DNA of 33,859 bases from assembly GCA_002762795.1 (NCBI GenBank), contig PCYA01000002.1:1-33859 (forward strand). Direction: 5' to 3'. Numbering within the stretch: position 1 is the stretch's first letter; the number at the start of each line of letters is the position of its first letter. The notes under the pieces were generated by a model that was not told the origin of the DNA, searched no databases, and saw nothing but the letters and a program-made list of their open reading frames with translations. Source of the DNA: Candidatus Woesearchaeota archaeon CG10_big_fil_rev_8_21_14_0_10_37_12 (GTDB taxonomy: Archaea > Nanobdellota > Nanobdellia > Woesearchaeales > ARS49). Shown piece after piece: positions 14,514-18,292 of this stretch. A program made the position numbers and the translations under genes.

Positions 14514-15126
14514 CTTGATAAACCTTACCAGTATAAACTTCTGCAGGATTAAATTCGTCAGGTGTTCTCGGGCAGGGATGAGGAACTTCGTTGTTTGCTG
14601 TTAATGACGTATCATAAACACACACATTGAATGTGTAATCTCCGTTGGTTGTTGCTTTCCCTGATCCTATGTTGGGGTATGCGCGTATTCCTATTGGTAT
14701 GACTTGTTGTTGGTTTCTCATAATCATTCCTCCACGCATTGCAGTAAATCTTCCTAACCAGTTGTCTTGAATAAATTGCTCATCTGCTTCTATAGTTTGT
14801 CCGTCTGGAGTGTATGCTTTTGAAAAAACAATTCCTACACTGAATTGTCTTGGATCTCCTACGTTTCGTATGCCTAATCCAAATGAAACCCTTTTTCCTT
14901 TTGTTACTGTTTGTACTGAGATTGGTATTGCGACTAGTTTATTGCCAATGCGCAGTGAGTTAATGATTTGATCTTCTGTTTGCTTGTCAAGAACTGCTTG
15001 CAATTCTTCTGCTTCTCCAAACCAGTTTGTTAAATAATACAGCGATAAGGTAAACAAGATTATTCCAAGAATGAGCATGACAATCATGCTAATACTGATT
15101 TCAAAACCTTTTTTTGAGCGAATCAT
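14494..15126 (-). CDS. Type IV pilin-like secreted protein with class III signal peptide
   Basis: The 210-residue protein starts with a short basic leader RSKKG, then FEISISMIVMLILGIILFTLSLYYL. This fits an archaeal prepilin in which the peptidase would cut after Gly and the hydrophobic helix would form the filament core or a membrane anchor. The remainder is beta-rich with YTFNVCVYD and two Cys near the end. Its ATG overlaps the stop of the upstream lipoprotein gene by 4 bp (ATGA), so the two are coexpressed. It is a likely part of a surface filament or its accessory. The filament type is not certain. Confidence 0.75.
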   Translation of the reverse strand: MIRSKKGFEISISMIVMLILGIILFTLSLYYLTNWFGEAEELQAVLDKQTEDQIINSLRIGNKLVAIPISVQTVTKGKRVSFGLGIRNVGDPRQFSVGIVFSKAYTPDGQTIEADEQFIQDNWLGRFTAMRGGMIMRNQQQVIPIGIRAYPNIGSGKATTNGDYTFNVCVYDTSLTANNEVPHPCPRTPDEFNPAEVYTGKVYQVTVRVV

Positions 15127-16511
15127 TGTGGGTTGATAAATGTTATGTCTCCTAAACTTTTTTGGTATTGTCCTCTTTTTATTTCTCCGTTTTCTTGGTA
15201 GTTATACCAGATTGCTAAGGTAACTCGTCTTTCTTCTTCTGGAAAGTTTGTAGTGATGCTTCTGATAGTTACTGTGTTTACTGTTTGCGTTATTTGTGCG
15301 TTTGGTTGTGTTTCTGCAAGGAGTTGTTGTCCTTCTAATAATCTTATTGTTTCAATGACGATATTTCCAACAGCTTCGTCTTTTTCATAAATTGCAAAGC
15401 CAAATTCAAATGAATCTTGGAGTACGTTGAATGGTTGATTGAATCGGTAGTTGTTGTTTAGTCGCGCAGATCCTATTCTTCTGTCGTCAAAAATATTTTG
15501 TGCTTCTGTCTGAATATTTTGTTTGAGTATTGTTGTACACTTGTTTGTTTTACATGAGTAGTCAAGGTAGTCTCCTGCGCTTCCTTCGCAATAACCGCAA
15601 TCCTGTTCGCAGCTGCATTTGTTTTCATTTGCGTCGCAGATAAAGTTTCCGCAAGTATTTGGTATTGGTTCGTGCATGCAGAAGTTATTTGTTTGTGCAT
15701 TGCAGTAATCTCTTGTTCCTGAATTTTTATCATCGCAACTTGCTGGGCAAGGATATTCTACATCAGGGTTTACGTAAATAATTTTTTCGTTGTATCCATT
15801 TCTAAAGGTTTCTTGTTTTGGCGTTTTTGTACTTCCACGCAGAGTTGAATACTCATAATCAATGTTAATGATGATGTTGCTGAGTTCTCCTTCAACAAGA
15901 ACTGTTTGTAGTTCTAGGATTATCTGTTCTGTTATTTTGCTTCCTGCTCTCCAAAGTGGCTTATTTACTGGTTGTCTTGCAAGTATGATGGTTCTTCCGT
16001 CTTCGGTTTTTCCTATAAGTTCTAATGCAGTTATTTTAATGTCTGTATTTCTGCCACCTTCGCGTGCAAGAGTTACAGCAACATCAAACGTGTCTTTTTT
16101 TAGATTGAATGGTTGATTGTACACTGTTTCGATGCTGAATTTGTCTCCTGCCGAGCTTAATTCTTTTGCTGTTGCTACAGGTTTAACTTGTGATTGAATA
16201 ACGTCTTGAACGCACATATCTTCTATGCATTGTTGTGTTAAATATTTGCTTTGCGACACTTTTCCCGTGCATGGTTTACAGTCTTGTGCGCAAGTGCACC
16301 CATTTTCATCATTTGTTGTTTCGCAAATATCATTACCGCATTTGTTTGGCAGCGCTTCGTATTTGCAAAAATTATCTATACATGCCGCTTTGTATCCTTC
16401 TGTTGATTTTGCAGTACAATCTGCTGCTGTTTCACATTCTTTTGAACTGCATGAAGTAAGAATTAGGAGTAAACTGATCATTACAATAAATAATATGAAT
16501 TTACACCTCAT
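15123..16511 (-). CDS. Cys-rich secreted lipoprotein-like surface protein
   Basis: This 462-residue protein has a hydrophobic signal with the lipobox-like LLLILTSC at about 14-21. Two Cys-rich modules follow (GNDICETTNDENGCTCAQDC and a GNFICDANENKCSCEQDC-type repeat), each preceding a beta-rich domain of about 130 residues, so the protein is a tandem duplication. Spaced CGN.IC...C.C..DC modules are common in surface proteins of archaea. A TATA box on the minus strand (TTTATAAA, about 16535-16542) lies 25 bp before the ATG. It is followed and overlapped by the pilin-like gene, which suggests a joint surface complex. Confidence 0.75.
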   Translation of the reverse strand: MRCKFILFIVMISLLLILTSCSSKECETAADCTAKSTEGYKAACIDNFCKYEALPNKCGNDICETTNDENGCTCAQDCKPCTGKVSQSKYLTQQCIEDMCVQDVIQSQVKPVATAKELSSAGDKFSIETVYNQPFNLKKDTFDVAVTLAREGGRNTDIKITALELIGKTEDGRTIILARQPVNKPLWRAGSKITEQIILELQTVLVEGELSNIIINIDYEYSTLRGSTKTPKQETFRNGYNEKIIYVNPDVEYPCPASCDDKNSGTRDYCNAQTNNFCMHEPIPNTCGNFICDANENKCSCEQDCGYCEGSAGDYLDYSCKTNKCTTILKQNIQTEAQNIFDDRRIGSARLNNNYRFNQPFNVLQDSFEFGFAIYEKDEAVGNIVIETIRLLEGQQLLAETQPNAQITQTVNTVTIRSITTNFPEEERRVTLAIWYNYQENGEIKRGQYQKSLGDITFINPQ

Positions 16512-16544: not shown

Positions 16545-17108
16545 TTATGCTCTTAAACGCGAGAGATCTTCTGGAATTTGCACTGTTTGTCTGGTTCGTT
16601 CATAGCTTCGTCTGCAAATTCCTGCAAGTGAGCGATAAAGTTTTGCATCTTCGGAAAATTCGTAGCGGTCTCTGAAGTCAAAACCATCTGTTTCTTCTAT
16701 TGTTAGATAGCCTTTTGTGTTCATGAGCAAAAAGTCTATGTCTGGTTGGTCTGCAAAGTTTGGATCAATAATATTTGCATGATCCCAGTCAATGAAAATA
16801 GGATGCCCATCTGTTCTACGAATAACAATATTTTCAGGGTGTAAATCACCATGATCAATACATGCTGCTGCTAGTACTCCTAAATGAGTTCCTATTGTTC
16901 TGTAGATTCCTTTTAATACATCTGGTCTTACGTAAGGTCGCGCGTCGTCTAGAAGAATATTTAAACGTGCACCTTCCACTTCTTCTACTTCTATGTCCGC
17001 ATCATCCACGCTAAGAACCCGTGCAGTAATCCCTCTTCTACTGAACTCTTTAAAATAAGGTACTAAATGTGCGTCTTTGAGATGTTCGTATAGTTTCATA
17101 AGGATCAT
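16545..17108 (-). CDS. Small protein-kinase-like / aminoglycoside-phosphotransferase-like protein, N-lobe short or missing
   Basis: The 187-residue product has a kinase C-lobe: hinge EVEEVEGARL (about 40-49), catalytic HGDLHPENI (86-94) and metal-binding FIDWDH (105-110), as in Bud32, RIO and APH/choline kinase relatives. The Gly loop and ATP-binding Lys of the N-lobe are not in this reading. The same frame stays open upstream to about 17276 with no ATG, GTG or TTG, and would read FVLKEG and TLIKFN, so an unusual start or a frameshift could supply the missing lobe. Alternatively the upstream DNA is a structured RNA. ATG at 17099 is an alternative start. Confidence 0.65.
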   Translation of the reverse strand: MILMKLYEHLKDAHLVPYFKEFSRRGITARVLSVDDADIEVEEVEGARLNILLDDARPYVRPDVLKGIYRTIGTHLGVLAAACIDHGDLHPENIVIRRTDGHPIFIDWDHANIIDPNFADQPDIDFLLMNTKGYLTIEETDGFDFRDRYEFSEDAKLYRSLAGICRRSYERTRQTVQIPEDLSRLRA

Positions 17109-17255
17109 GACGCTCTGGCAGACCGAGCCATAGGGGGAGAGAAGAAAGCATCGGTGCTTCCCTGCCAGCGCGTTGAATTTGATTAAGGTAGGACGCGTAC
17201 CCTCTTTAAGAACAAACCACCATCCACGATGTTTTGTTCCTGGCCAGTAGTATAA
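17105..17255 (-). ncRNA. Candidate structured RNA or leader upstream of the kinase-like gene
   Basis: About 150 bp of GC-rich DNA (near 50%) stands out from its AT-rich surroundings. On the minus strand a strong BRE/TATA (AAACTTTTAAATA, about 17261-17273) would start transcription near 17240-17247. The RNA would fold into GAACAAA/TTTGTTC, GGTA/TACC and CGCTGGCAG/CTGCCAGAGCG stems, with an inner GAAGCA/TGCTTTC hairpin. I could not match it to RNase P RNA, SRP RNA or a riboswitch I know. The competing view is that it encodes an N-terminal extension of the kinase. The remaining 100 bp to 17362 holds only the promoter and AT-rich DNA. Confidence 0.4.
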
Positions 17256-17362
17256 TAAGAAAGTATTTAAAAGTTTTGGTCAATTTTTTATCAAAAAGGA
17301 AAAAATAGTTGTTTTTAGGGTGTTTTGAAGGGATTTAAAGAAGAAATTATCTAATTCATGAA

Positions 17363-17587
17363 TCATCTGACTCTTTCAAACTGCGTGATGATAACCCATG
17401 CAAATACGAGCATGACTATTGCTCCTGTGATGATGTACCAAATGCCTTCAGTATAGTCAACAGAAATGCAAACATAAACTCCCCAGCCCATTAATGCTGC
17501 GCCAATCCATAAGAATTTATCTAGCACTAATTTCATTATTTCAAATTCTTCGTGTCCTGCTAGTCTTCTTTTTATTGATTTTGCCAT
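17363..17587 (-). CDS. Small two-helix membrane protein
   Basis: This 74-residue protein has a basic N terminus (MAKSIKRRLAGHEEFEIMK) followed by two membrane helices at about 25-42 and 50-68 with a short loop DYTEGI between. No family is recognised. It starts 15 bp downstream of the pilin-like gene's stop and is probably cotranscribed with it. The basic cytoplasmic head suggests a small accessory of the neighbouring surface system, which is only a contextual guess. Confidence 0.75.
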   Translation of the reverse strand: MAKSIKRRLAGHEEFEIMKLVLDKFLWIGAALMGWGVYVCISVDYTEGIWYIITGAIVMLVFAWVIITQFERVR

Positions 17588-17602: not shown

Positions 17603-18292
17603 TTATGCTACATCCACTATGAATTTTTTGCTTGCGTACAATGCATCTTCAAACGAGCTGAAGTCTGGATCGTCTGCACATGCTCTGTCATCAATTGCTT
17701 TGTAAACATTAACTTCCATTTCGTATGAATCTGATTTTAAACCTCTAACAAGCAATACCGCATCGTAGACGTCTCCATCATAATCTTTCAAGTCAAATTG
17801 TCCAAGTATTGTTCTGAACCAGTTTCGTTCTGGAGCAAGGTTTGATACAAAGCCATCGTTATCAAAATCATAACCGCCTACTGCAATGTTATTTAAAGTA
17901 TCTCTTGGATCACAATATGCGTCCGGTGTAAATGGTTGGATGCATTTAACTTCTACTCTGAAACAAACTCTATCTCTTCCTTCCTCGCGATTAGCTGCTG
18001 TGTTTCTAACACCAATAACAACTCCACTTGGTTTTCCTACGTTTACTTTGTCTGGTATTGAAAATACTAAGAGTTCTCCTCCTGAGCGTACTTGTTCTCG
18101 TAATTGTTCTCTGATTCCTGTGAGTTGTTGTTCTACTAAGGATGTTCCTGCTCCGAATTGTTTTTTGATGAATGATATTCCTAGACCAAGAACTGTGATT
18201 GCAATTATAAGCACAACAATTGCTGTGATGGATAATTCGAGAGCTCCTCGTTTGTTCCATTCTAAAGCACCAGTGTGCTTGTTAAACTTCAT
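17603..18292 (-). CDS. Type IV pilin-like secreted protein (second in cluster)
   Basis: This 229-residue protein has the leader EWNKRG followed by ALELSITAIVVLIIAITVLGLGISFI, a class III prepilin-type signal with likely cleavage after Gly. The mature part is beta-rich with VFSIPDKVNVGKPSGVVIGVRN, and its Cys residues could form disulfides. Start: an AGAGGTG ribosome site lies a few bases before the ATG, and a TATA (TATTTAAATA, about 18332-18341) lies about 40 bp further up. This leadered arrangement differs from the leaderless genes nearby. Its layout parallels the pilin-like protein at 14494-15126, so the two are likely components of one filament or surface system. Confidence 0.78.
   Translation of the reverse strand: MKFNKHTGALEWNKRGALELSITAIVVLIIAITVLGLGISFIKKQFGAGTSLVEQQLTGIREQLREQVRSGGELLVFSIPDKVNVGKPSGVVIGVRNTAANREEGRDRVCFRVEVKCIQPFTPDAYCDPRDTLNNIAVGGYDFDNDGFVSNLAPERNWFRTILGQFDLKDYDGDVYDAVLLVRGLKSDSYEMEVNVYKAIDDRACADDPDFSSFEDALYASKKFIVDVA

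Follow-up and report, generated by a model that had tools for sequence, protein, structure and literature searches.

The GC-rich block at 17109-17246 (minus strand) was tentatively read as the transcribed, hairpin-rich 5' leader RNA of the mRNA of a gained kinase gene, with a probability of about 0.42. Its composition, promoter strength and spacing, the lack of start and Shine-Dalgarno signals, the inverted repeat and the insertion context were computed directly. Counted for this reading were the tied-strongest promoter, the start-less site behind it, the low codon score of the 3' half, the inverted repeat and the position of hairpin 1. Counted against it were the coding-like 5' half, the weak fold of the whole block and a block homologue that was not found.

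The window is the whole stretch of DNA analyzed, namely the entire 33,859-base contig (G000:C18) of its own genome (G000; 1.35 Mb, 1,351,557 bases, 19 contigs). The archaeal character of this genome was judged from rRNA matching archaeal models, from CarS-like and ZPR1 genes and from the promoter type. Promoter, GC and codon statistics were taken from the window plus 35 stretches, together 716,160 of 1,351,557 bases (53% of G000). ORFs of at least 130 aa, picked by length, stood in for genes, and codon frequencies were taken from 578 long ORFs of G000. Of 212 ATG genes whose upstream DNA is free, the 67 with a TATA-like box at the leaderless position served to train the promoter matrix. This first matrix took in genes of the window; a retrained matrix (62 of 203 genes) leaves the window out. 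The promoter and the RNA start predicted from it were located as follows.

17262..17280, minus strand: BRE/TATA promoter ACCAAAACTTTTAAATACT, TATA start at 17271, located with the genome-trained matrix
17240..17243, minus strand: predicted 5' end of the transcript, placed by the TATA-to-start spacing of leaderless genes, at the letters CCAGGA

The first-pass annotation had proposed a BRE/TATA promoter for the block, and this was borne out. ACCAAAACTTTTAAATACT scored 16.1 bits with the genome-trained matrix (95th percentile of the training set, 14.0) and topped all sites of at least 13 bits found in 716 kb under the first matrix. With training free of the window it scored 15.9 bits, joint best in 716 kb with a site at position 4308 of L077. 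The latter, equally strong, appears antisense to a gene, so a high score by itself does not prove that a promoter is used.

In about one third of the genes with free upstream DNA the TATA-to-ATG spacing is sharply set at 28-31 nt, from which many messages of G000 are judged to be probably leaderless. The TATA start lay at this distance upstream of the ATG in 57 of the 67 training genes, and ATG, GTG or TTG stood at +26 to +33 in 22 of 29 sites of at least 14 bits. At the kinase promoter none of the three codons was found at +26 to +33, where CCAGGA stands instead, nor 28-31 nt after the TATA start as a leaderless mRNA would have it. The kinase ATG (17108) itself has no TATA at the leaderless spacing and no Shine-Dalgarno sequence. 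Lack of both is common (82 of 203 ATG genes), and leadered genes behind strong promoters do exist in G000.

Three further strong promoters of G000 were seen to lack a start codon at the usual position, none with an Rfam match downstream at the gathering threshold. At L106:1769-1925 (plus strand, G000:C19) a 14.2-bit promoter is followed by an RNA-like, hairpin-rich stretch, a candidate ncRNA. At L091:10701-10900 (plus strand, G000:C3) a 14.1-bit promoter and a gene that by eye reads as an AbrB/PhoU-type regulator are separated by about 150 nt able to form hairpins; a structured leader or an ncRNA is possible there. At L073:14646-14800 (plus strand, G000:C6) a 14.6-bit promoter has RNA-like sequence downstream.

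The kinase frame and its flanking genes were laid out as follows.

16545..17108, minus strand: orphan kinase-like ORF, 187 aa from its ATG, with HGDLHPEN and FIDWD motifs
16545..17279, minus strand: open extension of the same frame without a start codon, 244 aa by translation, bounded by TGA at 17282-17280
15126-16511: 462-aa gene, homologues in the family
17366-17587: membrane-type ORF of 74 aa, homologues in the family
17606-18292: pilin-like gene, homologues in the family

The pilin-like and 462-aa genes have homologues in 23 of 26 genomes each, G000 included. Twelve loci of the 462-aa gene were opened, the G000 locus included. In five relatives the 74-aa ORF directly precedes the 462-aa gene, with gaps, measured up to where the alignment of the 462-aa gene begins, of 45 (G017), 147 (G002), 296 (G012), 51 (G021) and 11 nt (G020). 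The same gap is about 73 nt in G019 and 851 nt in G000, where it is occupied by the promoter, the block and the kinase. In G013, G023, G010 and G004 the stretch examined did not show the arrangement. No counterpart of the kinase protein was found in the family beyond a weak kinase match. Since the gap is 851 nt against 11-296 nt in the five relatives, promoter, block and kinase are best seen, on gene order, as one cassette gained in the G000 lineage; it seems to have been inserted where gene order is otherwise conserved. Loss of the cassette in all relatives is the less likely alternative. Upstream of the 462-aa gene G007 (L126, G007:C8) carries a different long ORF, by eye a nucleotide-sugar dehydrogenase, which suggests that the spot takes up different genes per lineage. 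The gap before the 462-aa gene in G002 (L128, G002:C90) holds a GC-rich branched hairpin of -63 kcal/mol over 113 nt. Its likeness to the block was ruled out, as 345 of 500 shuffles scored as well.

A GC-rich block in an AT-rich region had been reported from the letters, and this was confirmed, with 52.9% GC over 17109-17246 against 37% for the genome. The 3' half (17109-17177) reaches 60.9% and the 5' half 44.9%. GC as high as that of the block was found in 0.17% of 3623 gene stretches of 138 nt, and as high as that of the 3' half in 0.05% of 7541 gene stretches of 69 nt. The range first given, 17105-17275, contains the real GC block and mixes the promoter with it; the transcribed part would begin only at about 17243-17240. 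A scan of the 716,160 bases returned 36 regions with a 66-nt window of at least 60% GC. Twenty of these are tRNA or 5S genes or sit in the rRNA operon or no more than 2 kb away from it, 11 lie inside long ORFs and 5, the kinase block included, are unexplained. The GC signature is therefore informative and not specific. Elsewhere in the window a second GC-rich intergenic stretch (1361-1429, and about 1340-1780) carries many short inverted repeats by eye.

Codon use was scored in the kinase frame; a gene-like part and a short ORF were located as follows.

17178..17246, minus strand: gene-like 5' part WPGTKHRGWWFVLKEGTRPTLIK, possible kinase beta2/beta3, by codon use in the kinase frame
17105..17131, minus strand: 8-codon upstream ORF MARSARAS, its TGA overlapping the kinase ATG as ATGA

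The C-lobe of the kinase scored 0.30, which is gene-like. The 5' part scored 0.244 (gene mean 0.251), a value reached or exceeded by 0.2% of wrong-frame gene stretches, 1.6% of rRNA 69-mers, 5.8% of intergenic 69-mers and 0.075% of shuffles. The 3' half (17177-17109) scored -0.49, as low as 0.07% of 7541 gene stretches and reached by none of 14 GC-matched gene stretches. GC by codon position was 57/48/78% in this half against 57/36/26% in the C-lobe. Two compensating frameshifts (frame 2 at 17190-17090) were favored by codon use only at a switch cost of up to 8 bits and were not adopted. MARSARAS may have arisen by chance or may serve as a coupling leader peptide.

Folding of the block gave the following elements.

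17208..17241, minus strand: hairpin 1, 8 bp plus 4 bp around a 2x2 internal loop, from the fold of 17107-17243
17185..17203, minus strand: hairpin 2, small, predicted from the fold only
17110..17173, minus strand: hairpin 3, a GC-rich inverted repeat of 12 nt (17110-17121 / 17162-17173), 11 of 12 complementary

The claim of several stems stood in part. The 12-nt inverted repeat is clearly beyond chance; the fold of 17100-17255 was no better than that of shuffled sequence (z -0.87, 40 of 200 shuffles as good; opposite strand z -0.25). Folding from the predicted 5' end (17243-17107) gave a borderline z of -1.97, with 8 of 200 shuffles as good. Hairpin 1 starts 2 nt past the predicted 5' end, and 17200-17246 alone gave z -2.40. 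Hairpin 3 has a 40-nt loop and stops 1 nt short of the kinase AUG, and its ends nearly coincide with those of the GC-rich segment (17105-17177). The segment that holds it (17109-17178) folded with z -2.33; z of -2.3 or lower also occurred in 2.8% of random and 5.0% of GC-rich gene 70-mers. The inverted repeat, of a length chosen post hoc, was matched once when the segment was shuffled 3000 times and never in 600 shuffles of the full 137 nt. A comparable repeat was carried by 9 of 4398 gene 70-mers (2 of 398 GC-rich, 7 of 4000 random) and by 39 of 3201 intergenic 70-mers, and is thus rarer in genes than between them. It is not a general mark of RNA, since none of 134 rRNA 70-mers carried one. 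No T-run of at least 5 was found in the first 330 nt of the predicted transcript.

Rfam 15 was searched with the window at gathering thresholds and with the block at E <= 10, and returned matches at chance level only. A tRNA and tmRNA search of the block returned none. A misplaced RNase P RNA was ruled out by RNase P at G000:C14. Archaeal C/D box sRNAs are defined by a C box (RTGATGA) and a D box (CTGA), and in archaeal H/ACA sRNAs an ACA stands directly 3' of a hairpin. Over its first 330 nt the predicted transcript contains neither box. No ACA lies directly 3' of a stem; two (17237 and 17232) fall within hairpin 1, and the others occur only from 17085 on. DNA searches for the block in 96 relatives gave short weak matches only, mostly at its AT-rich promoter end. 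A covariance model built from the block alone (two near-identical rows) matched 1 of 144 genomes, G000 itself, and nothing else credible in 716 kb. No block homologue was found in GTDB and viral contigs, phages or plasmids; translated searches, whose exact-peptide-word part detects close relatives only, likewise gave none. Phage and plasmid searches at DNA and protein level gave no match.

The kinase ORF matched PF01636 over its C-lobe (28.2 bits, cut-off 23.2), and this match together with the HGDLxPxN and DxD-type motifs places it with the kinase-fold C-lobes. Against TIGR03724 it scored 30.6 bits from profile position 59 (cut-off 125 bits). Bud32 itself was ruled out, the true Bud32 of G000 (223 bits) lying at G000:C9. 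Protein searches matched 4 of 96, 30 of 352 and 12 of 371 genomes, G000 counted each time. The kinase matches that were opened proved to be other kinases (Bud32, RIO and ABC1-like by reading), none of which aligns with the block.

The choice previously offered, an unknown RNA or an N-lobe with a non-canonical start, tips toward RNA because a strong promoter without a leaderless start codon leads into a palindromic, codon-unlike 3' half; the coding-like 5' half pulls the other way. In the leader reading the very strong archaeal promoter would start RNA at about 17242. The leader would be about 134 nt long (17243-17109, minus strand) and continue into the kinase, as is expected with no leaderless start codon and no T-run between block and kinase. 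Its terminal 64-nt stem-loop would stand against an AUG (17108) with no Shine-Dalgarno sequence, and ribosome entry may be held down or gated. Transcription, co-transcription with the kinase and a regulatory effect on translation are what we infer from these features. Hardest to square with this reading is that a protein begun at AUG 17108 would lack the ATP-binding N-lobe with its glycine loop and beta3 lysine; the 187-aa kinase begins within the region that holds the N-lobe in other kinases. Two ways round this would be translation of the upstream frame from an unrecognised start, or a gene damaged by a small palindrome.

A reading in which the block is coding sequence for the kinase N-lobe, with a protein of about 233 aa translated from a leaderless 5' end or an unrecognised start codon, was judged unlikely. 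The frame had been described as open through the block without a usual start codon. It is indeed open from 17279, past the predicted 5' end, has no in-frame ATG, GTG or TTG down to 17108, and takes in the CCA at position -28. An open frame alone is weak evidence, since dinucleotide shuffling also left the frame open in 17% of cases for the block and in 6% for the whole extension. The gene-like 5' half speaks for coding, and a loose glycine-loop/VAIK (lysine) pattern, drawn up post hoc, matches GTKHRGWWFVLKEGTRPTLIK and was also given for WPGTKHRGWWFVLKEGTRPTLIK; its frequency was 0.4% in open shuffles, 0.5% in random protein 46-mers and 0.05% in open wrong-frame 46-mers. A kinase C-lobe also needs an N-lobe, and two PADLOC PD-T4-6 models aligned residue 85 of the extended protein to profile position 86 (best match E 0.0011, 16.7 bits, from a model without a stated cut-off). 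PD-T4-6 carries an N-terminal kinase-like domain according to PMC11514479. AlphaFold2, run on the single sequence of the 233-aa frame, placed a strand-strand-helix upstream at very low confidence (pLDDT 34). Yet near the predicted 5' end there is no CTG, ATT or ATA in frame either, and the first in-frame CTG falls at residue 27, past the possible lysine. Read in this frame, the 3' half ranks with the least gene-like stretches, and an alpha-C glutamate is not evident by eye. The extension moved the family scores from 28.2 to 27.6 bits (PF01636) and from 19.5 to 18.8 bits (Kdo), without gain. Among the 352 and 371 genomes no match other than the window itself aligned upstream of residue 56 of 233. 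The particular form in which the N-lobe is translated by position from the very 5' end without AUG, GUG or UUG, its second half doubling as a stem-loop, is very improbable.

Damage to a transferred kinase gene, its N-lobe broken by a palindromic (MITE- or REP-like) insert of 64-66 bp and its start codon lost, with only promoter and C-lobe left over, is rather unlikely. In its favor, the inverted repeat (17110-17173) fills the GC-rich segment (17105-17177) almost from end to end, codon use in one frame is gene-like on both flanks and not within, and the cassette lies at a spot where relatives differ. With 22 codons removed, the distance from the beta3 lysine to beta4, counted by eye, nears that of Ser/Thr kinases, but the RIO kinase of G000 has an equally long stretch by the same kind of count. 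Against it, no second copy of the palindrome was found in the 53% sample, a search of the whole genome gave weak further matches only, and there is no clear target duplication. The C-lobe motifs are intact, codon use there is normal, and by eye at least two changes would be needed for ATG, GTG or TTG at the expected start. A separate small RNA gene that chances to precede the kinase is improbable to a further degree. The strong start-less promoter and the high GC fit it, as do the start-less promoters at L106 and L091 that lead into RNA-like sequence. A TATA of at least 8 bits lay 30-39 nt before the mature 5' end in 10 of 13 RNA genes checked (all but tRNA-Ser, -Leu and -Ala). Against it, the block is followed by no terminator-like T-run and has no Rfam match, C/D boxes or ACA just 3' of a stem, and its covariance model found no homologue.

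Should the leader reading hold, it would show that a gene newly acquired by a small archaeal genome can bring an exceptionally strong promoter with it, and a structured leader instead of the usual leaderless start. Should the N-lobe be translated, leaderless archaeal messages would call for revised rules on start codons. The general weight of either is limited by the single orphan locus.

According to PMC4983044, archaea differ widely in the fraction of their transcripts that is leaderless. Like Haloferax volcanii as described there, G000 probably has many leaderless genes, judged from TATA-to-ATG spacing; as a difference, the kinase transcript would carry a leader of about 134 nt with no Shine-Dalgarno sequence before its AUG. 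The kinase differs from Bud32 in falling below the 125-bit cut-off, in a putative N-lobe and in a true Bud32 elsewhere in the genome (223 bits). It resembles the small kinases of the Bud32/APH type (TIGR03724, PF01636) in a C-lobe with HGDLxPEN and DWD motifs at 28-31 bits. A GC screen of Pyrococcus abyssi, an AT-rich archaeon, picked out 73 GC-rich stretches between genes, of which 51 were known ncRNA genes (PMC3124441). Unlike the P. abyssi ncRNAs of that screen, the block lacks conservation and a terminator before the next gene and has an open coding frame. Like them, it is GC-rich, lies between genes and has a BRE/TATA upstream, as is often so there.
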